Shown here piece by piece: positions 31,720 to 45,910 of a stretch of DNA of 64,000 nt (position 1 is the stretch's first letter; each line of letters opens with the position of its first letter). The notes beneath the pieces were generated by a model. The model saw nothing but the letters and a program-made list of their open reading frames with translations. It searched no databases and was not told where the DNA came from. The stretch is from Mariprofundus ferrinatatus (GTDB taxonomy: Bacteria; Pseudomonadota; Zetaproteobacteria; Mariprofundales; Mariprofundaceae): contig NZ_CP018800.1 in assembly GCF_002795825.1 (NCBI RefSeq), positions 1,736,001 through 1,800,000 on the forward strand, given 5' to 3'. Both the position numbers and the translations under genes were made by a program.

Positions 31720-34179
31720 TCAGAGGGTAGAGAGCTCATCTCCGATAATAGTCGGGGTGATAAAGATCAGAAGTTCGTTCCGGTTATCCGTTATCGTCTT
31801 ATTTTTGAACAGGTACCCAAGAAGCGGAATATCCTTAAGAAGGGGTACACCATTCACCTGTTCAGACTCAGTCTGGGTGTAGATGCCACCCAGTACGACC
31901 GTCTCACCATTATTAACCAACAGCTTGGTCTCTACGGTTTTCTTATCGATAGATGGCGGGCCACCGGCAGCATCCGGTACGGGCGTGTCCTTATTAACGG
32001 TCAGTTCCATTACGATTCGTTTATCTGCGGTAACCTGAGGAGTAACCTTCAAAGACAGTAGTGAACTTTTCATCTCTGTCGCAGTAGTTGTTCCGCCGGC
32101 ACTTACCGTCGTCACAAGGAAAGGAATTTGCGTATCCTGTTCAATCTTTGCAGGAACCAGATTGCTGGTAAACACCCGGGGACTTGATACCACCTTGATG
32201 TCGCCATTCTGTTCAGCAGCAGAAAGTTCCAGATTCAGGTTCAGGTTGCCGCCCAACTTCGTCAATGTATATCCAACGGCTCCTAACCCGGTGCCAGCAG
32301 CAGCCAAATCGACCACATTGCCTGCAGCTCCACCAAGAGCGGCATTAGGCCCTGCAGCTCCATATACATTGTGCGTATAGTTGTTATTTAATGCTTTTGT
32401 AGCATTCCCGCCCCATCTGACACCCAATTCGCGTGAGAAAGTGTCTGACGCCTCGACAATGCGAGCCTCGATCAGAACCTGCTGAGTGGGTTTGTCTATA
32501 ACAGCAACAAGTCGTTTGATATTGTTCAGCCGTTCGCGCGTATCGGTAATAATCATCGTATTACTACGCTCATCGAGCAGAATGGAGCCTCGGCTGGAGA
32601 GCAGCTTCAATTCACCGCTGCCGCCAGTGCTTTCTGTCGTTGTGGCACCATCAGTAGTCGTTGCTGTTGCAACCGAACCACCCTGTAAAATGGTTTGAAC
32701 ATCATTCACCGAGGCATAACCGAGCGTAACAAACTCTGTTTCCAGTGGTGCCACATCTTCGGCGCTCTCCTTGGCCAGCTTGCGAGCGTCGGCATCCGCT
32801 TTCAACACACCAAGCGGGGCTATGCGAATAACGTTACCGCTCTGCTCTTTACCAAGACCACGTGCCTGCAGGATAAGATCCAGCGCCTGATCCCATGGCA
32901 CATCCACCAGTCTCATCGTCAATACACCCGAAACATCATCCGACATAATAATGTTCAGCTCGCTCATCTCTGCAATCAGCTGCAGTGCATTGCGAATATC
33001 AATATCTTTGTAATTAAAGCTGACCTTCTGTCCTGTATAGGCCTTTTCATCTCTGGCTGCAGCATCCGCCTTTCCAGAAGCAACGAGACTCTCCGGTGTA
33101 AGAGTCAGCGTAAGCACATTACCGTTCTGGAAGGAGGAGACCTCGGCCTTCTGACGCAGCCTTGCCACAATCCGTACATTCCTGTTTACAGCGTAACTGT
33201 CCACCTGCTTAACCGGGCCTGAAAAGGCGCTCACATCCTGCGAACGTTCCTGCCCCGGCGCCAGCGAGGCATTCTTGATATCCAGCGTTACATTGCCGTT
33301 TTCATCATTTAATTTAACAACCGGATTGGCCTCATTGGTTCGAATAACAAGGTGTGCCACCCTGTCATCCGGCTGAAAATCAACCGCCTCAACACTGAGT
33401 CCGGCAGTGCTCTTCTTCGCATCAATCTGGCCAATCCGCAGCACCATCGTGTTACTGTCCGCATCAATCTGGTGGCTGGAATCACCGCCACGCAGGGATA
33501 CAACAAGTCGCATACGGCCCTCGGCAGATCCGACCGTTACATCATTCAGGCGCTGAGCAGAATAGGTGTAGTGCTCTTTCGGAAGGCTTGAACTACCGCC
33601 CCAGAAATCAACCACCATGGTTTTTCCACCATTGGTCACAAGCGCATTGTGGTTAGAGTCCATGTTACGCCCATGCAGAATAAGTTCCGTGATATTCCCC
33701 TTATCCTTTACTGTAATATCCTGCAGAACCGCGCCATCACTCTGGCCAGCTGGTTTACTGGACACCTGAGTCACTGACACCTGAAGATCATTACCTTTTT
33801 CAACGATCTCATATTTGGCCCCTTTGACCAGCGCGATTTCGATACGGACGCCACTGCTGTCACGCTTGGGGTATACACTCTCCACGGCGCCAGCACCTGC
33901 GATATCATCCACGCCTTCAGCCATAGCTGCACCTGGGAAGTTGAGCACCAGCCTTGTAGGCCCTTCAAGATTAAACACCTGGTATTCAGCAGCCTCATCC
34001 ATGGCAATGTTCAGTCGCTGCCCATCACTCTCAGAAAGAAGCTGCATGCCCTGGATGGTGGCTGCATTCACCTGAACACTGTTTGCGCTCAGCAGTAGCA
34101 GAAAGGCGAAAATTCCCACAACCTTGCCGGACCAACCCAATATTCTGTCATCTTTCCATTGTTTCATGATATACCCCAT
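31720..34179 (-). CDS. pilQ: type IV pilus secretin PilQ
   Basis: 819 residues from the ATG at 34179 (GGGAG 7 nt upstream); the frame opens at 34206. A signal peptide ending near VNAATIQ is followed by two AMIN-type domains (about 45-340, glycan binding), a secretin/TonB short N-terminal domain with YKDIDIRNALQLIAEMSELN, a secretin N domain, and the beta-barrel secretin domain with VLIEARIVEASDTFSRELGVRWGG and the late NNGETVVLGGIY. It forms the outer-membrane pore for the pilus. Directly follows pilO; a pilP gene, normally between them, is absent. Confidence 0.95.
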   Translation of the reverse strand: MGYIMKQWKDDRILGWSGKVVGIFAFLLLLSANSVQVNAATIQGMQLLSESDGQRLNIAMDEAAEYQVFNLEGPTRLVLNFPGAAMAEGVDDIAGAGAVESVYPKRDSSGVRIEIALVKGAKYEIVEKGNDLQVSVTQVSSKPAGQSDGAVLQDITVKDKGNITELILHGRNMDSNHNALVTNGGKTMVVDFWGGSSSLPKEHYTYSAQRLNDVTVGSAEGRMRLVVSLRGGDSSHQIDADSNTMVLRIGQIDAKKSTAGLSVEAVDFQPDDRVAHLVIRTNEANPVVKLNDENGNVTLDIKNASLAPGQERSQDVSAFSGPVKQVDSYAVNRNVRIVARLRQKAEVSSFQNGNVLTLTLTPESLVASGKADAAARDEKAYTGQKVSFNYKDIDIRNALQLIAEMSELNIIMSDDVSGVLTMRLVDVPWDQALDLILQARGLGKEQSGNVIRIAPLGVLKADADARKLAKESAEDVAPLETEFVTLGYASVNDVQTILQGGSVATATTTDGATTTESTGGSGELKLLSSRGSILLDERSNTMIITDTRERLNNIKRLVAVIDKPTQQVLIEARIVEASDTFSRELGVRWGGNATKALNNNYTHNVYGAAGPNAALGGAAGNVVDLAAAGTGLGAVGYTLTKLGGNLNLNLELSAAEQNGDIKVVSSPRVFTSNLVPAKIEQDTQIPFLVTTVSAGGTTTATEMKSSLLSLKVTPQVTADKRIVMELTVNKDTPVPDAAGGPPSIDKKTVETKLLVNNGETVVLGGIYTQTESEQVNGVPLLKDIPLLGYLFKNKTITDNRNELLIFITPTIIGDELSTL

Positions 34180-34206
34180 AACCTGTCTCCCGGCCAAAGC
34201 ACGCAC

Positions 34207-34824
34207 CTAGTTGCCCCGGCCCGTTTTTGTACTCTTGGGCGCCTCTTCAACAAACCTGTATGTAACCGCCTGTCCTTTTACCGTTAGTTCATTATCATTC
34301 GCCTGTGTCAGGGTCAGGTTCTTCACATCAACAATACGAGGCATCTCTCCTACCCGCTTGAGAAAGGTCAACAACTGGCGGAAAGTCCCTGTCACATCCA
34401 GTGCCACGGGAACCTCGGCATAAATCTGCTTGGCCACTTCTCTTTCAGGCTTAAAGATACTGAATTCGAGGCCCGAATCCTTACCCGCCCATGACACACT
34501 CTCCAGAAGGTCAGGGATTTGTGACTTCTTCGGCAGCATGTTTAGAGCCACTTTCAGCTGCTTCTCGAGCTGGGCATACTCTTTCTGCTTGCGGGGAAGG
34601 TCTTGTGCTAGCCGCTGGTTCTTGGCCAGCAGCACCTTCTGCATCTCAAGTGCCTGCTCTTCCCTGACAATCTCTTCCTGAATCGGAAGCCAGCCCACAT
34701 AGATATAGGCTCCAACAATCAAAACAAAGGTGATAGCCAGCACCAGCAACTTCTGCCAGACAGGTAGCGGAAGCACGGGCCGCAACATTTCGACAAGGGA
34801 AACCTTCAGGGAATCAAACATCAC
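34207..34824 (-). CDS. pilO: type IV pilus assembly protein PilO
   Basis: 205 residues: cytoplasmic start, one membrane helix (about 26-47), a coiled-coil (EEQALEMQKVLLAKNQRLAQ) and a ferredoxin-like periplasmic domain with PVALDVTGTFRQLLTFLKRVGEMPRIV. PilO pairs with PilN to link the inner-membrane platform to PilQ. The start overlaps the pilN stop by 4 bp. Confidence 0.92.
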   Translation of the reverse strand: MMFDSLKVSLVEMLRPVLPLPVWQKLLVLAITFVLIVGAYIYVGWLPIQEEIVREEQALEMQKVLLAKNQRLAQDLPRKQKEYAQLEKQLKVALNMLPKKSQIPDLLESVSWAGKDSGLEFSIFKPEREVAKQIYAEVPVALDVTGTFRQLLTFLKRVGEMPRIVDVKNLTLTQANDNELTVKGQAVTYRFVEEAPKSTKTGRGN

Positions 34825-35414
34825 ACTCCCCCCCTCTTGCTGACAGCAGAATTCTCACTGTTTCTCTCTGTGTTCTCATCAGCTCGGTTGACGTTCAAAC
34901 TGAAGCTTCTTACCGGGAGTCCATCCACCAATACCCGGCTGATCACCAGCAGTTGAATATCGGTAAACAGCGGTGAGCTATCCAGCTTGCGCATAAAGTT
35001 GGCGACAGCCTTATTGCTTTCACCAAGGCCGGTGAGTTCAATTTTATCACCACTATCTTTTACCGATTTGATCCAGACATTATCGGGAATAACCTGGGCA
35101 ATCTCGTTCAGCGTTTTCAAAGAACGGAAACGCCCCTCCTGCAAACGGTCGATAATATCCAGTTTCCTCTGAACATTCGCACGCAGGTTGTCAAGATTCT
35201 GAATTTTACCGATCTTCTTTTTCAACTCGGCATTCTGCTGTTGCAGCTTAACCGTCTCATCCTTAAGGTCATAGAGCTGCATCGAAGCGGCGGAGTACGC
35301 AGCCAGACTGAGCAGTGCTGCGATTAATATCACACCGCCGAAGATAAATAGGTGCTGCATAATCTGCTGCTGACGTTTAGCAGCACGATACGGAATCAGG
35401 TTAATACGGATCAT
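34821..35414 (-). CDS. pilN: type IV pilus assembly protein PilN
   Basis: 197 residues. MIRINLIPYRAAKRQQQ is the conserved PilM-binding motif; a membrane helix follows at about 23-45, then a coiled-coil and a periplasmic domain (IPDNVWIKSVKDSGDKIELTG). Overlaps pilM and pilO by 4 bp each. Confidence 0.94.
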   Translation of the reverse strand: MIRINLIPYRAAKRQQQIMQHLFIFGGVILIAALLSLAAYSAASMQLYDLKDETVKLQQQNAELKKKIGKIQNLDNLRANVQRKLDIIDRLQEGRFRSLKTLNEIAQVIPDNVWIKSVKDSGDKIELTGLGESNKAVANFMRKLDSSPLFTDIQLLVISRVLVDGLPVRSFSLNVNRADENTERNSENSAVSKRGGV

Positions 35415-36493
35415 TCGTCAAAGCTCCGTGTTGCAAGGCCTACCGGCACCATCAGCATGGGGCCAATTCTCTGCAGGTGCTTCTTGTCGAATTTTTTCGA
35501 TGGAATTTTGATATGATCGAACGGATTGAGAATCGCTGTATCAATACCAAGCCGCTGTTCAAGCTCGGTTGCGATATCAGGGATCAGTGCACAACCGCCT
35601 GATAACAATATCCTGCGCACAGGAAACTCCGCTTTGCTGGCAGAATAGAAGTCGAGTGAACGCACAAGTTCGGAAGTAAGACCCAGATAGAAATGCTCCA
35701 GCGCATCAGGGTGAATGCTCTCGAAATCTTCAATTTTCAGCTGTTCAGCTGCCTGATAGCTGACGCCATGCTCTTTCTGTATCTCTTCGGTCAGCTGTTT
35801 TCCTCCATAGAACTGATCGCGGACAAAGGCCGTTTTACCATTTATCAACACATTGATGTTCATCATGTTGGCGCCGATATTGACCAGTGCATATACATCG
35901 GCATCCTCTTCAGCAACCGCCTGGGCATCGGATGGGGATGCCGGTTCAACGCCAGCCGCCTCAGCACCGTTCTCCAAGGCAAATACTGCGCAATCAACAC
36001 ACTTTGCTGTCAACCCCGCTTCAGACATAACCATCTGATAATCTTCAATAATTTCGCGCTTACAGGCGACCAGAACCACATCGATCAATTCAGGGTTATC
36101 CGGTGTCATGCCCTGAATATAAAAGTCGAGGAACACATCATCGATATCGTACGGAATATGCTCATCGGCCTCGATCTGGATCTGGGCCTCAAGCTCAAAT
36201 TCACTGACTTCAGGAATAGAGATCGTCTTAATGATGACTGCATTGCCGGATACCGCCAGAGCCACACTCTTGGTAGAAGGCTTGGCAATATTGACCGCCT
36301 CACGAAGCGCCTCTGCAACGGCGGTGGAATCAATGATTGTATTTTCCACGATGGCATCCCGTGGCAAAGGGACTGTTGCCAGGGATGAGAGCTCATATCC
36401 TGAACCTGAGCGGGTTAATTCAATCAGTTTGATCCCGGTCGAACTGATATCCACACCCATGACCGCCTCAGACCGCTTTGAAAAAAAAGACAC
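35411..36493 (-). CDS. pilM: type IV pilus assembly ATPase-like PilM
   Basis: 360 residues, actin-like. N-terminal MGVDISSTGIKLIELT is the phosphate-1 motif; VDCAVFALENGAEAAG and ALVNIGANMMNINVLINGKT give phosphate 2, and ILLSGGCALIPDIATEL the adenosine motif. It starts at a GTG (36493) with GGAGG four bases upstream. PilM is the cytoplasmic cap that binds PilN. First gene of pilM-N-O-Q. Confidence 0.94.
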   Translation of the reverse strand: MSFFSKRSEAVMGVDISSTGIKLIELTRSGSGYELSSLATVPLPRDAIVENTIIDSTAVAEALREAVNIAKPSTKSVALAVSGNAVIIKTISIPEVSEFELEAQIQIEADEHIPYDIDDVFLDFYIQGMTPDNPELIDVVLVACKREIIEDYQMVMSEAGLTAKCVDCAVFALENGAEAAGVEPASPSDAQAVAEEDADVYALVNIGANMMNINVLINGKTAFVRDQFYGGKQLTEEIQKEHGVSYQAAEQLKIEDFESIHPDALEHFYLGLTSELVRSLDFYSASKAEFPVRRILLSGGCALIPDIATELEQRLGIDTAILNPFDHIKIPSKKFDKKHLQRIGPMLMVPVGLATRSFDE

Positions 36494-36629: not shown

Positions 36630-39437
36630 TCAGTTGCCGGAAGCAGTGGCGCGCTCTGCCTTTTCATAGGCTTTTTCTGCATCTTTGTCTCGCCCCAAAC
36701 CTTCATAGGCACGCCCGAGATAATGATATATCCGACCATGATAGGAAGCACCTGCACCTTCCAGAATCGACTGTAAATATCCTACCGCTTTAACGTACTG
36801 TTTTGATTTCACATACACTCGCCCGATACGGTAAGTGGCATCAAAATCGCCAGCATCAACCGACAGCTCTTTTTGGTAGTAGCTTAGTGCAAGCGGATAG
36901 TTGCCAAGGTACTCATAACATGCAGCAATGTTGAAATTGCTGTTGTTATGGTTTGCATCCAGCAACACAACCTGTCGAAACACCTCCAGCGCCAAGCCAT
37001 AACGCCCCTTTCGCATCAGCTTATAGCCGTATTGATGCAGTGCATCGACGTTGCCTGCCTCCACGACCGCCTCTACATATTCGCGGTGGGCAGCCATCTC
37101 CAGAGAGAGCGTCTTTCCGTCCAACCCCTCTGCGACTGCATGAAACCGCCTCGTTATCGAGCTATCACCAAGCATGATATCGGCCTGTCTGGCCACTGCT
37201 GCTGAAAACTTAACAGATTGGCCGAACGATGCTTCATCAAAATGGTGCATTCCCATCTCATCCAGTAACCGCAACTTGAACTCTCCAATGCCGCGACTAC
37301 TGAGTTTGGCCATCTCAAATTCGAGCGCCGGATAATCGGCCCTATTCAGCGGCAATCCCGCATTGCCGACCAGATCAAAGGCCCGACTGTTCAGCAGCTG
37401 GTAGGGCATCCACTCAACCAGCAACCCATACTCTTTGAGAAAGTGCTCACGCAGCTTCTTGTTTGCTGCAATCGATGTTACCTGTGATGGTAAAACCGGC
37501 TTGTCGGAAGCGATCAGCATAAAATAGGAGGATTTGATATAAAATATCGCGCAGTAGTTAAAGCTGCCGGCAATGGTATTGAGAATAATGTCCGCCCCTC
37601 TGTCTCCGACCCGTCCATCCATCCAAGTCACGTAAACACCGTCAGGCCTAAGCCGTTTTTTTACCACATCGAAAAAATCCTGTGTATATAATTTGGCTGA
37701 GCTGAAATAGAGCGGCGTGGTCACCGTATTGAGAATCAGGTCATACGACTCATCCGACGCCTTGCTGAAATGAATGGCATCATCAACTATAATATTCACC
37801 CGTGGATTGGATTCGATTTCAAGATTCCACTTGCGCATGCGAAACAGGTTTTCCCGTACCACAGGATTGATTTCAACCACATCGGTAGCCTCAAACATCT
37901 CACCCACAACTGAAGCAGTTGCACCACTCCCCAGCCCCAGAACAAGAGCGCGCTTAAGCCCTGGTGCATGGATAGAAGAGAGAGCACCCACTACCTTTTC
38001 CGACGGACTGTCGAGTGGAATACTGGTGTAACCATTGATAAAGAAATACGGCGTTCCATTGATCCAGTTGATTGAAAAAACATCCTGATAGCCTTTGAAC
38101 TTCTCAGGGAAATCGAACTCTTTTCGGGCCCGCTCCAGCTTATCGACAGCACGAAATTTCGTATAACTTACATAGAGAAGATCCTCATCCCACTTCACCT
38201 TCTCAAACAGCATCATAGGCACAAGAAGCAACAGCGTTACAGTGACTGCCTGGATATTCAAACGGGCATACATAAGCCAGGAGAGTGCTACCAGTAAAGC
38301 AATCATGACCAGCTGTATGCCATAATCGAGATAGCGGTGCAGAACAAACACCATCAACAAAAAGCCAGTCACATTCGCCAGTGAAGCAACATAAAGAAGG
38401 TGGCCGGATTCGCGACTCACATCCCCCCTCTTTCGACCAAGTAGCGCGGGAATCGTCGCTCCGAAAGCGATCGCAGGAATTCCCATCAGCAGTGCAAGCA
38501 CACTCCATTTCAGCAGCACTGATGTAATATAATTTTCGGATGCCTGTTCATAGTAGCCGGCATAGAGATATGCCACCGGCTCAACCGTAACAATCAGCAG
38601 AAGCAGGCCGGCCATCGCAGCGAGCAGCAGTGTGTGAAACCGTACCCCGAAACTGCGCACCAGCATGGACCCGGCTGCAATACCGAGAAGAATGATTGAG
38701 AGCACCAGCGCAAATGATTCGCGAAATGGTCCCAACAACATTTCAGCCAGCTTGATCATGAATAACTGAAAAACGGCCGAAGCCATGCTAACGGGAATCA
38801 GAGCCTGCCAGCGACGCGGTGACAGCCTTAACCGACCCTGGTCGGACAGAGCCGGAGGCTGGGCAACATCGGCAAATGCGACTTTAAGCAACAGTGCTAT
38901 GACAATATTAACAGCCACAAAGCCAAGCGTGGCACCTGTAATTCCCAACCAGCGAATCAGCAGGTATTCGATCAGCAGTGCAGTAAGGGCTGCACCGACA
39001 TTATAAACTGCGTAAACCCCAGAAAAAACAGCTCCGGAAAAGAGACGGCTCATGTAGCCTGCAAACAGAGGCACACTGCAGCCAATCAGAAATGCCGGAA
39101 CAATCAGAAGCATAATACAGATCAGAATGGTTCCGCTTAAACCGGATGGAACGAACGGAATGCCTGCATAGAGAAGCTGATCGATCAGATCGCCACCGAG
39201 AACAAAACCTGCACCGCAGATGCCGATGGCAGCTTCAATCAGCCACAGCCATGGCCAGAGCCGCCATGCATAACGGGAACCGACACCGATACCGAGAAGG
39301 AATGTAATGAGAATCGCCGCTGACACGGCAAACTGATCGCCAATCAGGTTGCCGAGAATCCGACCGTAGAGAATTTCATAGGAGATGCCGGCAAGGCCCG
39401 ATGCCAGCATCAATCCGAAAAAGAGGTTGCGTCGCAT
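36630..39437 (-). CDS. membrane/spermidine-synthase-like/TPR fusion protein
   Basis: 935 residues in three parts. Residues 1-420 are membrane helices similar to the fused spermidine synthase family. A soluble methyltransferase-like spermidine-synthase domain spans about 440-680, with VLGLGSGATASVVGEMFEATDVVEINP for SAM or product binding and LILNTVTTPLYFSSAKLYT. The C-terminal 180 residues contain TPR repeats (DALHQYGYKLMRKGRYGLA, SNFNIAACYEYLGNYPLAL, ATYRIGRVYVKSKQYVKA). The aminopropyltransferase active site is not clearly conserved, so the reaction is unknown. It lies between the pilM promoter region and the secreted-protein pair. Confidence 0.78.
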   Translation of the reverse strand: MRRNLFFGLMLASGLAGISYEILYGRILGNLIGDQFAVSAAILITFLLGIGVGSRYAWRLWPWLWLIEAAIGICGAGFVLGGDLIDQLLYAGIPFVPSGLSGTILICIMLLIVPAFLIGCSVPLFAGYMSRLFSGAVFSGVYAVYNVGAALTALLIEYLLIRWLGITGATLGFVAVNIVIALLLKVAFADVAQPPALSDQGRLRLSPRRWQALIPVSMASAVFQLFMIKLAEMLLGPFRESFALVLSIILLGIAAGSMLVRSFGVRFHTLLLAAMAGLLLLIVTVEPVAYLYAGYYEQASENYITSVLLKWSVLALLMGIPAIAFGATIPALLGRKRGDVSRESGHLLYVASLANVTGFLLMVFVLHRYLDYGIQLVMIALLVALSWLMYARLNIQAVTVTLLLLVPMMLFEKVKWDEDLLYVSYTKFRAVDKLERARKEFDFPEKFKGYQDVFSINWINGTPYFFINGYTSIPLDSPSEKVVGALSSIHAPGLKRALVLGLGSGATASVVGEMFEATDVVEINPVVRENLFRMRKWNLEIESNPRVNIIVDDAIHFSKASDESYDLILNTVTTPLYFSSAKLYTQDFFDVVKKRLRPDGVYVTWMDGRVGDRGADIILNTIAGSFNYCAIFYIKSSYFMLIASDKPVLPSQVTSIAANKKLREHFLKEYGLLVEWMPYQLLNSRAFDLVGNAGLPLNRADYPALEFEMAKLSSRGIGEFKLRLLDEMGMHHFDEASFGQSVKFSAAVARQADIMLGDSSITRRFHAVAEGLDGKTLSLEMAAHREYVEAVVEAGNVDALHQYGYKLMRKGRYGLALEVFRQVVLLDANHNNSNFNIAACYEYLGNYPLALSYYQKELSVDAGDFDATYRIGRVYVKSKQYVKAVGYLQSILEGAGASYHGRIYHYLGRAYEGLGRDKDAEKAYEKAERATASGN

Positions 39438-39577: not shown

Positions 39578-39955
39578 TTATTGACCGTGAACTTCTCGCA
39601 TAGACTCGGGGCCTTTCACCTCACCATGGACCCAAGAACCCACGGAACCATCGGCACAAGTACATGGTGACCCGGCAATAGCCTCAGGTGAGCTATCCTT
39701 ATCCTCACCCTCGTCCTCTGGACATGGACCCAAGACATCGCCATGTGCCAAATGTGCACTTACTGCCGGCTGTGCCACCTCAATCGTATGACGATTGCTG
39801 TCTTTACCCGGAGGGTAATGGCAGATGGTCACCTTGCTGCTGGAAGTATCTGCTTCACTGCAATCACAGAACCCCGCAATATCATCAGCGATAGCTGAAA
39901 ATGGGACGCTTATCGCAACTACAGCTGCATACATCACAAATCGAATATATTTCAT
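39578..39955 (-). CDS. secreted protein with Cys-His...AHLAHGD module
   Basis: 125 residues with a signal peptide ending at FSAIADD. The mature part carries VTICHYPPGKDSNRHTIEV, then VSAHLAHGDVLGPC, an arrangement also found in many secreted proteins of other bacteria with unknown role. A short tail (CTCADGSVGSWVHG...) resembles the tail of the next gene upstream, so the two are paralogues. Cys, His and Asp placement suggests a metal site; that is inference. AGGAGG lies before the ATG. Confidence 0.65.
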   Translation of the reverse strand: MKYIRFVMYAAVVAISVPFSAIADDIAGFCDCSEADTSSSKVTICHYPPGKDSNRHTIEVAQPAVSAHLAHGDVLGPCPEDEGEDKDSSPEAIAGSPCTCADGSVGSWVHGEVKGPESMREVHGQ

Positions 39956-40000
39956 ATTACCTCCTGTAAGACCAAAGCTGGTCTGATTAGGTTATATCGG

Positions 40001-40693
40001 TCACTGGCCTTGAACCGAACGGATACTTTGAGGTGCAACCGCTGCACCGGAGACGAACGAACCAGCTGATCCGTCAGGACATGAGCAGGTTCCATCACCG
40101 GGACCGCCAGCACCACACAGAAAACAGGTGGGAGTTGTCGGGCATTCGCCAGCAATATCGCCATGTGCAAGATGTGCTGCCAGTGCCGACTCACTGATGT
40201 TCAGGGTCTGAACATCTGTGGTCTGTGAACCGCCACCATCCTTATCCTTGGAGCCACCACCTGTAACGGTAACATGGCAGACATCCACTTTAGCCTCTTC
40301 GCCATCATCTTTTGATTCGCCGTCTTTGCCGCTATCTTTACCGGAATCATCAGAGACACTCTCTTTGCCGGAATCTTTACCGGAATCATCAGAGCCGCTG
40401 TCTTTGCCGGAGTCATCCGAACCAGAGTCTCCGGAGCGATCCTCTTCTACAACTGCAGCACCGCACTCTCCCAGATAATCCCCATGCTCAGCCAGATGTG
40501 CAGCTACTGCAGATGCGCCAACCGAAAGGGTCTGAGCATTTGACGGGTTTCCTGGCGGTAAATGACAAATCGTCACCTTATCTTCTTGTTTTGCTTGTGC
40601 AGCAGGAATGCCCGTCGAAATTCCGTTGCCAACATTAGCAACCGAAAGTGAATAAAACAGCGCAAACACCGCTAGAAACATCATGTTCTTCAT
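40001..40693 (-). CDS. secreted two-module Cys-His...AHLAHGD protein with Asp/Ser repeat linker
   Basis: 230 residues from the ATG at 40693 (GAGGAG upstream); the frame opens at 40723. After a signal peptide come two copies of the module seen in its neighbour: VTICHLPPGNPSNAQTLSVG...AHLAEHGDYLGEC and VDVCHVTVTG...LAAHLAHGDIAGEC. Between them is a low-complexity acidic linker of repeated DDSGKDSG units, probably extended and possibly calcium-binding. The C-terminal CSCPDGSAGSFVSG matches the neighbour's tail. Function unknown. Confidence 0.68.
   Translation of the reverse strand: MKNMMFLAVFALFYSLSVANVGNGISTGIPAAQAKQEDKVTICHLPPGNPSNAQTLSVGASAVAAHLAEHGDYLGECGAAVVEEDRSGDSGSDDSGKDSGSDDSGKDSGKESVSDDSGKDSGKDGESKDDGEEAKVDVCHVTVTGGGSKDKDGGGSQTTDVQTLNISESALAAHLAHGDIAGECPTTPTCFLCGAGGPGDGTCSCPDGSAGSFVSGAAVAPQSIRSVQGQ
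40320..40438. repeat. tandem coding repeat (DDSGKDSG linker)
   Basis: Several copies of a unit encoding DDSGKDSG/DSGKESV in the secreted two-module protein; likely to vary in copy number between strains. Confidence 0.6.
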
Positions 40694-40895: not shown

Positions 40896-41921
40896 TTATC
40901 GAATTACTGCCCGTATCATATGGGATGCCTTGCCATTTACGTAGCCAATTGCATAGGCCACGATCCTGTATCCGGAAACCCAATCACCCATACCCGCTGC
41001 GCCATAAGCGCCGAGTGTATCTGGAACTGCAGGATCCGCCTTCTCATGGGCACTGCAGCCAGCTGTTGTTGGCGTGATTGTCGCGACATCACAAGGGCAG
41101 TTGGAAGGCATCTGACCACCGGCACAAGTGGACGGTGCAACAATGCCATCGCCAGAATAGATGCCAGCCGGATCCAGCGGGTAAATCTCAATATCACGCT
41201 CACTGTTGTTCTGATCCCCTGCTGTAATCCAGACCACTGCACCGTTTTCGGGAATATCCTGCCCAACGACGGGTGGATTCTGATGCGGAAGCTGAGGAAT
41301 GGATGGGGTGATGGTCCCATCTGCTGCAATATCCATCTTGATATAACGAGGCAGACTGACACTGATATGATACATTGTTGGCGCCACACGTGTTGCCGGA
41401 TCTGTCCCCACATCAATACAGTTGGAAAAGATGGCATCATCCTGAAAGCAGACCGCCCTATCCTTCATCGGCGAATTGTCAAAATAGAGCACCTGTCCGG
41501 TGATGCCGCTGCCTGAATCACTGATGGAAAGAGGCCCTGGATGGTACCGGTAAGCACCCCACTCCAAGTAGTCGCCCACTGTGCTGAAATACCCCGCCGT
41601 GAATCCTGCTGGAAGTGGAGGCTCACCAAAGCCGGCATGATCATAAGCGCCGGGGTAATTGGTATAGGCATCAAACTCGGCATCATTGGCCAGTGCCCAG
41701 GCGATATAATTGACCGCTGTTTCAGCATAATAGTATGCTTCCGTTGAAGTCTGGGCAGATGCGCTGGTCTGTGTCGCAGTTCGTGAAGTGAAAAACATCG
41801 CCAGCGAGAGAAGCGTTAACAATCCGAGCATTATCACTGCCGTAACCAGCACGAAACCCTCTTCTCGCGCCCTGTTCCGATTTGTCAAAGGAGTTGCCAG
41901 CATATTCAGTTCCTCGGCCAT
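40896..41921 (-). CDS. pilX: PilX-like type IV pilus assembly protein
   Basis: 341 residues. The N-terminus EEGFVLVTAVIMLGLLTLLSLAMFF is a PilX-type anchor helix preceded by a type III signal-like region, followed by TSTEAYYYAETAVNYIAWAL, typical of PilX_N. The rest (about 280 residues) is larger than usual and has several cysteines. It overlaps pilW by 16 bp (an ATG at 41903 would remove this). PilX is a minor pilin that helps start the pilus. Confidence 0.78.
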   Translation of the reverse strand: MAEELNMLATPLTNRNRAREEGFVLVTAVIMLGLLTLLSLAMFFTSRTATQTSASAQTSTEAYYYAETAVNYIAWALANDAEFDAYTNYPGAYDHAGFGEPPLPAGFTAGYFSTVGDYLEWGAYRYHPGPLSISDSGSGITGQVLYFDNSPMKDRAVCFQDDAIFSNCIDVGTDPATRVAPTMYHISVSLPRYIKMDIAADGTITPSIPQLPHQNPPVVGQDIPENGAVVWITAGDQNNSERDIEIYPLDPAGIYSGDGIVAPSTCAGGQMPSNCPCDVATITPTTAGCSAHEKADPAVPDTLGAYGAAGMGDWVSGYRIVAYAIGYVNGKASHMIRAVIR

Positions 41922-42526
41922 GATTTGAACGTCAAACTTAACGTTTTGGTTTCATCGTTCTCATTCACATAACTGGAGCTCAAAGTTACCGTTACCACAC
42001 CGCTTCCTGAGGAAACTGTCATGCCATTTGTTGTATCAAGATCTCGTATCAACTCCTGAAAAGTTGAATAAGAGGCGCCGGGGCGGAGCCAATAAACCCT
42101 GTCATTACTCGTTCTCTGGTATTGAACAATCCCCACATTCCCTTCCAGATCCTGATACGTGAGCGTTTTACTGGCCGCATGCCAGTATGGCAGCACTGCA
42201 AAAGTGGCATTGTTGGTTGGATAGCTTGCAGGGTTGGTCACACCCCGTGCAGTCAAGTCAGCCAGCACGTTCCTGGTCGGCGACTGGGCACTAATCGACT
42301 GACGAATCTCCGCCTGCAGAATATGGGATGCCAGATATAGGTCTGTCATCCGTTCAGTTCGGGAAGCAACCGCCCTGCCAGTATCGTTATAGGAGACAAA
42401 CAGCGCTGTAAGCCCGGCCAGAATAATCAGCCCGATGGCCATACCGATCACCATCTCGATCAGGGTGAAACCCTGTTCGCGTTCCTGATCCATGCGGTTC
42501 ACTCGCTGAAAAGTTTGAGTGCGCAT
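41906..42526 (-). CDS. pilW: minor pilin PilW
   Basis: 206 residues with the prepilin motif EQGFTLIEMVIGMAIGLIIL near residue 18, followed by RTERMTDLYLASHILQAEIRQ as in PilW. It starts directly after the pilV stop. PilW belongs to the pilus-tip minor pilin complex. Confidence 0.85.
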   Translation of the reverse strand: MRTQTFQRVNRMDQEREQGFTLIEMVIGMAIGLIILAGLTALFVSYNDTGRAVASRTERMTDLYLASHILQAEIRQSISAQSPTRNVLADLTARGVTNPASYPTNNATFAVLPYWHAASKTLTYQDLEGNVGIVQYQRTSNDRVYWLRPGASYSTFQELIRDLDTTNGMTVSSGSGVVTVTLSSSYVNENDETKTLSLTFKSWPRN

Positions 42527-43021
42527 CTAATACACCTTGGTCAAATGGGTAAGATAGACTGAGCGGGTCTGCCCCCTGCGCGCCCAGGTTACAGTCACCA
42601 GCTTGGTTTGCGGCACATTTGCGTAACCGGTTGGCTGAATAAAGTTCTGCATGCTGCTCAAATTGGATGCCAACGGGCCTGTGGCAGTAGTTTTGTTGGT
42701 AGTTATTGTATATTCAATACCCACTCCTGTAGCGGGCGTGCAAGTATTACTTGTCGGATATGTGGGGACACTCCCCATCGTTGTCATGGCACAATCCGAT
42801 GCAATCGAAGGAACCCTGTCATTGGCATCCTGCTGCCAGAATTCGAGAACCTGTTCGGCCAAATGCACGGCAGTCAATCGCTCGCGCGAGGTCTGACCAC
42901 TGCTCATCGTGGTAATGCCGAAGCTCCCTAACGCCATCACTCCAATGGAGACAACCACCAGTGCGATCAGGATCTCAATAAGCGTAAACCCGGAAGAGGA
43001 ACTCATGCTCTTGGCTTTCAT
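42527..43021 (-). CDS. pilV: minor pilin PilV
   Basis: 164 residues from the ATG at 43021, overlapping the fimT stop (ATGA); the frame continues to 43204 but that stretch overlaps fimT. Prepilin signal SSSGFTLIEILIALVVVSIGV, then LTAVHLAEQVLEFW typical of PilV. The tail LVTVTWARRGQTRSVYLTHL is also family-like. Confidence 0.86.
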   Translation of the reverse strand: MKAKSMSSSSGFTLIEILIALVVVSIGVMALGSFGITTMSSGQTSRERLTAVHLAEQVLEFWQQDANDRVPSIASDCAMTTMGSVPTYPTSNTCTPATGVGIEYTITTNKTTATGPLASNLSSMQNFIQPTGYANVPQTKLVTVTWARRGQTRSVYLTHLTKVY

Positions 43022-43491
43022 TGCAGATATGCCCTGCCGATAATGTTCAGGCTGATCGCCTGGCTGGTAGTGCCGGCGGTAATAGTAATTGTTCCCGCAT
43101 TGGCTGTACCACGACTGGTAAATGTGCGGGTTGTCGTGGGAGAGAGGGAGAGCTTGCTGGAATATTGTCCAAGGCTGACTGCCTGTGCACTGCACTGCCC
43201 ACAACTTCCCGACAAATCAGCATCATAGGTGTAACCGGTCGAAGTAAACGAAAGACTCACGCTACGGTTCTCCGCCACTGCCTGAACCCGAGCCTGTTTC
43301 ATGTGGGATAGCAGCGATTGTGATGCACTTCGAACCGACTGCTTCTCTTTCCACGAAGAGAAGGCCGGGATCGCGACAGAACTCATCACGCCGACAATAA
43401 CGATTACAATAATCATCTCGAGCAGGGAGAAGCCGTACTGTCCGGAAAAGCTGTCCCTGCTCTCCAGAACTTCGACTTGCCTGCTTCCCAT
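43018..43491 (-). CDS. fimT: GspH/FimT-type minor pilin
   Basis: About 157 residues from the ATG at 43491, 22 bp from the divergent mrcA start; earlier in-frame ATGs (43530, 43578) would run into the mrcA coding region. Prepilin motif QYGFSLLEMIIVIVIVGVMSS, then LLSHMKQARVQAVAENRSVSL of the GspH domain, and a small disulfide (SGSCGQCSAQ). First gene of fimT-pilV-pilW-pilX. Confidence 0.85.
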   Translation of the reverse strand: MGSRQVEVLESRDSFSGQYGFSLLEMIIVIVIVGVMSSVAIPAFSSWKEKQSVRSASQSLLSHMKQARVQAVAENRSVSLSFTSTGYTYDADLSGSCGQCSAQAVSLGQYSSKLSLSPTTTRTFTSRGTANAGTITITAGTTSQAISLNIIGRAYLQ

Positions 43492-43513
43492 GCTTCCGCT
43501 TGAATTGGCATCA

Positions 43514-45910
43514 ATGCGCATTCTATCCATTATCGCGAAAATCGTACTCTCCTTTAGCATTATTGCTGTGATGTGCATTACGATAGGTTATCTTCTGTTC
43601 TCCAGCAACCTGCCAAAACTTACTGCCCTATCAGATTATCAGCCTCCGCTTGTCTCCCGCGTTTACAACAGTGAAGGCGAACTCATCGCAGAGTATGCAG
43701 ATGAACACCGAATCCTGACACCTTTCGAACAGATTCCCGGTCCTCTCAAAAAGGCATTTCTGGCAGCTGAGGATCAACAATTCTACGAGCACCCTGGTAT
43801 CAACCCCGCCCGAATTCTCTCAGCAGCACTGGCTAACCTGCGAGCGGGACAAACCGTACAGGGTGGTTCAACAATCACCCAGCAGGTGGCCAAAAACTTT
43901 CTACTCAGTTCCGAACGCTCGTACACCCGCAAGATTCGCGAAGCGATTCTGGCTTATCGTATTGAAGAGGCATTCTCAAAGGATGAGATTCTCTACCTCT
44001 ATCTCAACCACATCTATCTCGGTCGTGGATCGTACGGTGTTGCATCTGCAGCATGGCGCTATTTCCATAAACCACTGGATGAACTGACCCTTGGCGAATG
44101 CGCCACGATCGCAGGACTTCCGAAAGCACCTGGGAAATATGCGCCCCACATCAACCTGGAAAAAGCGCTACAGAGACGCAACACCATCCTGCACCTGATG
44201 CGTGACAGCGGTTACGCTGAAGAGGCCGAGGTAGAAGCAGCCCTGAACGAGCCGCTTGAGGTAGCCGAGCTGGAGACACCCAAGCTTAACGATGCCTATG
44301 CCGATCTCGTTCTGCGCCAATTGACGGATCATTTCGGCCTCAAAACCCTGCGCAGACAGGGGCTTACCATCACTGTCCCACTCAACCCGAAGATGCAGGA
44401 GGCCGCTATCCGTGCGGTTCGCCATAACGTACTTGAGATTGAACAACGCCAGTTCTACCGCTATCCGGTTAACCATGCCCCCGAAACATGGTCGGAACTT
44501 TTGGAATCGTGGAGAAAGGCCCGCGAAGATAAACCTGTAGCACCAGCCACGGACGAACTGATTCCCGCACTGGTTGTCAAACTAACCAATGGCGACCTGA
44601 CCGTTGATGATGGCAGAAACCGCTGGCAACTGAGCAAACCCTCCTGGACATGGAAGTCACTATCCCAATATCAGGAAGATGGCGCTACTGCAGAGCAGAT
44701 TGCAGCGTTCAGAAAGCGCTCGCGCAGCTGGATCGCTGGTGATGAAATTCGTCTGCAGGGAACCGAAAAGGGCGGAGTCCGGCTTGCTCAGGAACCTTCG
44801 ATTGAGTCGGCGCTCTACGCCATCGACCTCGAGAAAGGCACCGTACTGGCGCGCGTTGGCGGCTATGATTATCAGGCCGCCGGCTTTGACAGGGTTCATC
44901 AGGCTATGCGTCAGCCCGGCAGTGCCTTCAAACCGTTCCTCTATGCATCTGCACTGGCTAACGGATCAACTCCAGCCACGATCGTCATGGATACACCGGT
45001 GGTATTTGACAGTGAGCAGAGCGACGAATTCTGGAGGCCGGAAAACTATAAGGATAATTTTGCAGGACCTGTTCCGCTGCGTAATGCACTGGAGCATTCA
45101 CGCAACCTCGCATCAATCAAGGTACTGCAGAATATCGGCATCAGCCGTTTTCTGAATGATCTGCAGATCTACCCAATGGAGCGCCAGTTCCCCTCCCAAC
45201 TCGCGCTGGCACTGGGTGCCACCGAGGTGTCACTGGAAGCACTTACCAACTCCTACGCCATCATGGCCAGCCAGGGAAAGAGATGGGAACCAGTATCCGT
45301 TCAGCAAGTACAGGACCGTAATGGCAACACCCTGCATCGTTCAGTATCAGGCAACCGCTGCCAGGTCTGCCATGTCACGCCTACGATGTCCGCCAATGAC
45401 GCCATGCGCCCGGCAGAACAGGTGCTTGATCCGGTTGACAGCTTCCTGATCACCAACATGATGAAAGGCGTAATCGAACGCGGCACAGGCCAGCGCGCCA
45501 AAGCCCTGAATCGGCCAGCCGCAGGCAAAACCGGCACCACCAACAAACAGGTTGATGCATGGTTCATGGGGTACACCCCACAAATCATGACTGGCGTCTG
45601 GACAGGCCGTGATACCCCTACCCCGATGGGTCGCAGGGAAACCGGCGCCCATGCCGCACTGCCAGCATGGCTGGAATCAATGCAGGCATTCCACGAAGGT
45701 CGTCCGGTAGAGGATTTCACACCACCGGAAGATGTTGAGTGGGTTGTTATCGATGCCAAAACAGGGCTGCTGCCCGGCCCGGATAGTGAAGAGGTGTTTC
45801 TTGAGGCCTTCCGCAGCGGCACTGCCCCCAGTGAGGAGTCGCCAGCGATCAACTCTCCAATAGAGAGTAAGCCCTCTGAGGATGCCGGCTTTTTCGAACT
45901 GGGACTATAG
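43514..45910 (+). CDS. mrcA: penicillin-binding protein 1A
   Basis: 798 residues from the ATG at 43514 (MRILSIIAKIVLSFS). One membrane helix, then the glycosyltransferase-51 domain with AAEDQQFYEHPG, GGSTITQQVAKN and RKIREAILAYRIE; an OB-like insert; and the transpeptidase domain with the active serine in RQPGSAFKPF, EHSRNLASIKV and the KTGTTN box. It polymerises and cross-links peptidoglycan. PBP1A next to pil genes is common in gammaproteobacteria, where ponA precedes pilM; here it neighbours the minor pilins instead. Confidence 0.94.
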   Translation: MRILSIIAKIVLSFSIIAVMCITIGYLLFSSNLPKLTALSDYQPPLVSRVYNSEGELIAEYADEHRILTPFEQIPGPLKKAFLAAEDQQFYEHPGINPARILSAALANLRAGQTVQGGSTITQQVAKNFLLSSERSYTRKIREAILAYRIEEAFSKDEILYLYLNHIYLGRGSYGVASAAWRYFHKPLDELTLGECATIAGLPKAPGKYAPHINLEKALQRRNTILHLMRDSGYAEEAEVEAALNEPLEVAELETPKLNDAYADLVLRQLTDHFGLKTLRRQGLTITVPLNPKMQEAAIRAVRHNVLEIEQRQFYRYPVNHAPETWSELLESWRKAREDKPVAPATDELIPALVVKLTNGDLTVDDGRNRWQLSKPSWTWKSLSQYQEDGATAEQIAAFRKRSRSWIAGDEIRLQGTEKGGVRLAQEPSIESALYAIDLEKGTVLARVGGYDYQAAGFDRVHQAMRQPGSAFKPFLYASALANGSTPATIVMDTPVVFDSEQSDEFWRPENYKDNFAGPVPLRNALEHSRNLASIKVLQNIGISRFLNDLQIYPMERQFPSQLALALGATEVSLEALTNSYAIMASQGKRWEPVSVQQVQDRNGNTLHRSVSGNRCQVCHVTPTMSANDAMRPAEQVLDPVDSFLITNMMKGVIERGTGQRAKALNRPAAGKTGTTNKQVDAWFMGYTPQIMTGVWTGRDTPTPMGRRETGAHAALPAWLESMQAFHEGRPVEDFTPPEDVEWVVIDAKTGLLPGPDSEEVFLEAFRSGTAPSEESPAINSPIESKPSEDAGFFELGL

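Follow-up and report, generated by a model that had tools for sequence, protein, structure and literature searches.

PilY1 is usually viewed as the protein that caps the tip of the type IVa pilus and serves as its adhesin. What, in Mariprofundus ferrinatatus, is the role of two small genes that lie directly downstream of pilX, the position of the PilY1 gene elsewhere? We addressed this question in a stretch of 64,000 nucleotides, analyzed whole and called the window here, as well as in related genomes of the same lineage, taken as Zetaproteobacteria (Mariprofundia), and in genomes of other groups.

Genes, domains and neighbours of P0001 and P0002

All features in this paragraph and the next lie on the minus strand of the window. 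The two genes encode P0001 (40001..40693, 230 residues) and P0002 (39578..39955, 125 residues), both given as coding sequences including the stop codon. We call proteins encoded in the place after pilX slot proteins. P0001 and P0002 have a common layout, in which an N-terminus that is hydrophobic and, by eye, resembles a Sec signal peptide is followed by one or two CH...HGD modules, a CxCxDGxxG stretch and a conserved short C-terminus. The single module of P0002 (39722..39835), located by sequence match and structure models, reads KVTICHYPPG...AHLAHGDVLGPC. In P0001, module 1 (40463..40579; protein search and alignment) reads KVTICHLPPG...AHLAEHGDYLGEC; after a linker of Asp, Ser, Gly and Lys (40318..40430; tandem-repeat search), module 2 (40139..40291; protein search, with the start taken from the sequence) reads KVDVCH...AHLAHGDIAGEC, has no PPG and carries a Gly/Ser/Lys/Asp insertion behind CH. 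The C-terminal tails, placed by the tail motif, are SIRSVQGQ in P0001 (40004..40027) and SMREVHGQ in P0002 (39581..39604). Domain searches found neither an N_methyl nor a PilX_N prepilin N-terminus in either protein. Both proteins gave nothing credible in Pfam, NCBIfam, PHROGs, PDB sequences and phage records, and the same holds for P0002 in one further search.

The operon upstream encodes minor pilins. The nearest is PilX-like and is the putative docking partner (40896..41921; PilX_N at E = 6e-4, under the curated cut-off), followed outward by a PilW-like protein (41906..42526; N_methyl match, with the PilW label from position), a PilV-like open reading frame (42527..43204; GFTLIE motif by eye, true start probably internal) and a FimT-like protein (43018..43578; FSLLEM motif by eye). 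The downstream neighbour of P0002 is a spermidine-synthase/TPR membrane fusion (36630..39437), identified by domain search. A terminator-like hairpin with a T run lies 3′ of P0002 (39528..39547), a consensus match only, in a region where the same search found six such sites against 3.6 expected. An earlier note on this DNA had described two adjacent minus-strand genes with a common module, present twice around a linker in one of them, between a minor-pilin operon and a TPR fusion; the open reading frames and domain searches agree with it in each respect, the second copy in P0001 being interrupted by the insertion. The Gly/Ser tail of that description is recast here as CxCxDGxxG and then the extreme C-terminal R[SE]VxGQ.

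Two further observations concern the surroundings. The spermidine-synthase/TPR fusion also adjoins module genes in two genomes outside the lineage (L236:975-3707 in G179 and L241:62-2803 in G142). The window also contains a pilM-N-O-Q-like cluster (31720-36493) with no pilP between pilO and pilQ; here and in other loci, the pilM to pilQ labels are ones that we presume from gene order. Loss of PilP from the genome was rejected, as PilP (PF04351) is encoded at C1:529354-529740 of the same genome (G000).

Conservation, spread and structure of the module

The CH...HGD module is a real, widespread and uncatalogued domain of about 40 residues, found mostly in exported proteins. Its pattern C-H...H..HGD...C is nearly invariant among 87 copies from many phyla. 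Counted over 87 distinct copies of at least 32 residues, using the ungapped sequences at each position, the first Cys is conserved in 86/86, the next His in 85/85, the AHL His in 85/87, the HGD His in 83/87, the Asp in 85/86 and the last Cys in 84/86. The expectation that Cys, His and Asp would be conserved among homologues is thus borne out, and near-invariant Cys and His, candidate ligands of the kind seen in zinc-finger-like metal domains, are present in the 87 copies. Their pattern suggests that the module may be stabilized by a disulfide or by a metal. Module proteins were gathered by profile, since an earlier regular expression had missed many copies. Of the two alignments, A3 has 73 rows, including the window and L001 rows, drawn from 86 module references, and A5 has 80 of 84 references plus three rows from the window's own genome; near-duplicates, fragments and odd lengths were dropped from both.

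Within the 2.30 Mb genome, a single contig, the DNA pattern for HLAHGD occurs in three places and its reversed control in none, and a protein search gives four module matches in three genes. The third gene (C1:682081-682194; L001:1366-1704) lies about 1.09 Mb from the window genes, has no pilin neighbours and adjoins a site-2-protease-like gene (label by eye); a family search with its module likewise gave no credible match. The two intact window copies and this third copy are identical in 21 of 39 alignment columns, and 14 columns are common to all four copies. Scanning a collection of 84,980 species genomes yielded 25 module loci, which belong to Bacteroidota, Omnitrophota, Planctomycetota, Myxococcales, Patescibacteria, Nitrospirales, an archaeon and others, and three haloarchaeal plasmids carry the module too. 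Many copies belong to surface proteins unrelated to pili, for example in Bacteroidota.

The model of the module alone has a mean pLDDT of 90 and a beta-beta-alpha arrangement. In fold searches, neither this model (best Z 3.3) nor that of P0002 (best Z 2.6) gave a match at E ≤ 0.001, in the PDB for the module; rows for ribosomal-protein folds, L9 included, were set aside as noise. Eighty-three module sequences searched against Pfam gave scattered weak matches only (best E 0.016), and AHLAHGD and six other module strings are absent from the open-licence PMC papers. The earlier description of the module as common and uncatalogued therefore holds for the libraries searched (Pfam, NCBIfam and motif strings in the literature).

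The C-terminal tail and the linker

With or without a module, the slot proteins end in the consensus hydrophobic-R-[ES]-[IV]-x-G-[QNEK]-stop, which covers the last six to eight residues. The motif R[EDSTQN][VILM]xG[QNEKRW]-stop ends 50 of 2,379 open reading frames in the lineage loci, a frequency that is not genome-wide because the loci were picked via module or PilX matches. Each of the 50 encodes a module or slot protein; the module is present in 39 and missing from 11. By comparison, 719 permuted motifs ended 0.35 open reading frames on average and 28 at most, and the motif shifted 6 to 30 residues upstream was found in none or one. In the tail, Gly is encoded by each of its four codons and Arg by six, and each of the three stops is used; because these synonymous codons and stops vary, the constraint acts on the protein. 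When a profile built on the final 32 residues was run on 13 whole genomes, every match at E < 0.001 was a module or slot gene. As judged from these sequences, the tail peptide is specific to the module/slot family and not general to secretion. The model of P0002 shows the tail as a low-confidence coil. As a DNA pattern, the tail was tried in four genomes and left unused, its 5, 3, 7 and 7 hits being near chance against control totals of 6, 0, 1 and 4.

The linker of P0001 is a DNA tandem repeat with a period of 39, 2.4 copies and a score of 146. Runs of Asp, Ser, Lys, Gly, Glu and Asn of 20 to 139 residues occur in 31 of 77 module/tail proteins versus 1 of 422 control genes, and the unit and length differ greatly between proteins, in line with the suggestion in the earlier note that the linker varies. 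One might guess that the Ser/Asn linkers are glycosylated.

The slot after pilX in the lineage

Module genes in related genomes are placed 3′ of pilV-pilW-pilX and 5′ of pilM or another conserved membrane-protein gene. Of 41 genomes, 38 have a PilX homologue at E ≤ 0.001. We compared 33 loci with a homologue of the window PilX, and in 31 of them the sequence extends at least 700 bp downstream. In 25 of the 33 loci, a protein with the tail motif is encoded within 2 kb after PilX and on its strand, and 15 of these 25 carry the module. Slot proteins often stand two to four in tandem. The other eight loci (L112, L113, L114, L115, L116, L121, L126 and L128) have no tail protein; five of these genomes (G005, G006, G008, G010 and G012) encode a module protein elsewhere, with a similar and sometimes eroded C-terminus. 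At L113, L114, L115 and L116 a FadL-type outer-membrane porin directly follows pilX and replaces the slot proteins. The L113 copy matches the model of the pilus-system porin FilD, below the cut-off.

Several loci vary in other ways. The first slot gene ends in RS[FLY]-stop and not in the tail at L065:4956-5546, L067:5748-6083 and L071:4819-5397, and also at L069 and L070; this ending is perhaps a second tail type. Genes with both module and tail exist without pilin neighbours as well, one of them in the window genome. One such gene keeps its own place in several genomes (L001, L061, L064, L066, L068, L145 and L146), next to thiolase-like and site-2-protease-like genes (labels by eye). A polytopic protein of about 272 residues with no Pfam family is encoded at L067:7619-8440, L062, L065, L071, L120, L130, L147, L230, L231, L232 and L237; in 10 of these 11 loci a module/tail gene lies 77-319 bp upstream of it, and at L147 and L230-L232 the two genes have moved together. 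Another polytopic protein, of about 500 residues and again with no Pfam family, follows the slot proteins at L063:9180-10712, L118:483-1961, L073:3370-4869 and L127:3948-5456; by eye it is perhaps GT-C-like.

Comparison with PilY1

Like PilY1/PilC (PF05567), P0001 and P0002 combine the slot after pilX, export as far as their N-termini indicate, and conserved C-terminal residues. However, PilY1/PilC proteins have about 1,000 or more residues and a beta-propeller or vWA domain, and P0001 and P0002 have no such domain. Neither matched PF05567 at E ≤ 10, and we did not file them as PilY1 because the propeller domain is missing. PF05567 had no match in 59 lineage genomes (0/41 and 0/18), a count that a diverged PilY1 may escape. 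Since PF05567 also matched none of the 14 built-in control genomes, 53 Pseudomonadota genomes from outside the lineage served as positive controls, and 21 of these matched (7/20 and 14/33). Among the open-licence PMC papers, none was found that pairs PilY1 with Zetaproteobacteria.

In published operons pilX is followed by the PilY1 gene (PMC13190605), and the last residues of PilY1 have been modelled as a beta-strand added to PilX (PMC11046646, PMC13190605). Because PilY1 is modelled as attached in this way, we compared PilY1 C-termini with the tails. The tail core, fixed beforehand, occurs in the last ten residues of 10 of 28 PilY1 proteins versus 24 of 380 other genes, and in 37 of 1,400 interior windows. 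A PSSM built from the lineage tails has weak power to tell PilY1 ends apart (AUC 0.58-0.61), and on these ends the core PSSM is no better than its reversed form (0.64). The same core often ends the minor pilins of the operon (PilX 13/33, PilV 14/39 and PilW 9/39). W-R-x-[VILM], a pattern noticed after the fact, is found in 11 of 28 PilY1 ends versus 4 of 380 controls. Equating the tail with the C-terminus of PilY1 thus held only partly, given the weak PSSM and a core in 10 of the 28; as a sign of homology, the likeness between the two ends is suggestive and falls short of proof.

The module in pilins outside the lineage

The module is present in 30 of 398 Pseudomonadota genomes, and 21 of these 30 belong to the window's genus, family or order. 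In eight of the other nine, the module is part of a PilX-like protein or is encoded beside a pilin gene. The L140 protein passes the PilX_N cut-off, those of L141 and L237 match PilX_N below it, and those of L142, L241, L243 and L244 have a PilX-like N-terminus by eye only. L238 and L242 encode exported-looking module proteins adjoining a pilin gene, and L236, cut by the contig start, continues with the spermidine-synthase/TPR gene and a pilin-like gene. The exception is G132 (L240, at a contig edge). The fused PilX gene of L140 stands in the order fimT-pilW-pilX-pilM-N-O. PF05567 was found in three of these nine genomes (G069, G132 and G142, the last below the cut-off). The strict tail is absent from all ten of those non-lineage module proteins, and its absence from pilin fusions is expected if the tail replaces a covalent linkage. 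Modular pilins that carry a foreign domain at the pilus exist, such as PilB of Streptococcus sanguinis (PMC8179133), and at L140, L141, L036 and L055 the CH...HGD module likewise lies inside a pilin-like protein, whereas in the window it sits in a separate protein that is not a pilin.

The species-genome scan gave a broader picture. Of its 24 non-lineage loci, four (L036, L055, L056 and L059) encode a prepilin-like module protein by regular expression, and L052 and L044 are of pilus type by neighbours or Pfam. Most of the remaining non-lineage module proteins are of other surface types; therefore, the module is not pilus-specific. The link to surface structures that the earlier note proposed is upheld by the slot after pilX and by the module at pilins in eight of the nine other Pseudomonadota genomes. 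That account was sound on Cys/His/Asp, surface link and linker, and overlooked the absence of PF05567 matches, the PilX-module fusions and the tail, which offers the best hint of how the proteins work.

Proposed function and alternatives

Sequence alone shows the slot, tail and module as well as the PilX-module fusions elsewhere, and the linkage of the slot and module proteins to pili is strong. We propose, with confidence and doubt in about equal measure, that P0001 and P0002 are small type IV pilus tip proteins that, in a lineage with no PF05567 match, do the job of PilY1 and dock on PilX by the tail. Both proteins would be exported by Sec. Their last six to eight residues would then be added as an edge beta-strand to PilX, encoded just upstream; this docking is inferred from the position, the exclusivity of the tail, the fusions and the models of PilY1 on PilX in the literature. 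The docked protein would be held on the tip complex of FimT, PilV, PilW and PilX, and the export and tip location of P0001 and P0002 are to be taken as similarly indirect. The flexible, length-variable linker of Asp, Ser, Lys, Gly and Asn would project the module or modules outward, and these, stabilized by disulfide or metal, would be the contact element; what they bind is a guess. Observations that count against such tip proteins are the eight of 33 PilX loci without a tail protein, four of them with the FadL-like porin, the module-plus-tail genes that occur away from pilin genes, the low-confidence coil of the tail in the P0002 model, the weak PSSM and the presence of the tail core at the ends of minor pilins.

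The proteins could instead be cargo secreted through the pilus, like TcpF and CofJ, that rides on the minor-pilin tip and leaves the cell, to end up in biofilm or on mineral, for instance, with the tail as the signal recognized by the carrier. TcpF and CofJ of type IVb pili are also exported non-pilins whose genes accompany those of minor pilins, TcpF is recognized by the minor pilin TcpB through a short terminal peptide (PMC9565799), and small exported proteins in tandems of two to four within a minor-pilin operon are what such cargo would look like. However, by comparison of published motifs, the TcpF/CofJ signal is N-terminal (PMC9565799) and the conserved end is C-terminal here, and a module fused into PilX-like pilins, as seen elsewhere, cannot be released. 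We consider cargo unlikely.

A surface family that binds metal or acts in redox chemistry through Cys, His and Asp, with genes that merely happen to lie near pilin genes here, would account for the near-invariance of these residues, for the many copies in surface proteins unrelated to pili and for the third copy far from pilin genes. Yet the slot is conserved with and without the module, and fusions to pilins have arisen repeatedly, which makes so loose a link to the pilus improbable. Finally, it is very doubtful that the tail is a sorting or processing tag for an envelope enzyme, unrelated to PilX: its strict placement at the stop codon and the polytopic membrane proteins next door, one moving with the module gene (L147, L230-L232), fit such a tag, but PEP-CTERM-type tags are hydrophobic anchors on many unrelated proteins, and the tail is hydrophilic by eye with no membrane anchor, is confined to module/slot genes by profile in 13 genomes and is kept by module-less slot proteins in the same slot.

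Implications for pilus assembly

Returning to tip proteins that dock on PilX, the lineage as a whole may have exchanged PilY1 for small, fast-changing proteins that share little beyond a six-residue PilX clip. This clip would be a portable tag by which tip heads dock and can be exchanged for one another, and the commonest head would be the CH...HGD module, which perhaps binds metal or mineral; we put this forward tentatively, as something short of an even prospect. According to a recent proposal, donation of a strand to PilX is a general signal for assembly (work cited in PMC13190605). If our reading is true, the lineage would offer a natural minimal system in which to ask whether strand donation alone licenses pilus assembly. 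A short docking tag would be gained, and a widespread, uncatalogued extracellular module would have its first functional setting.
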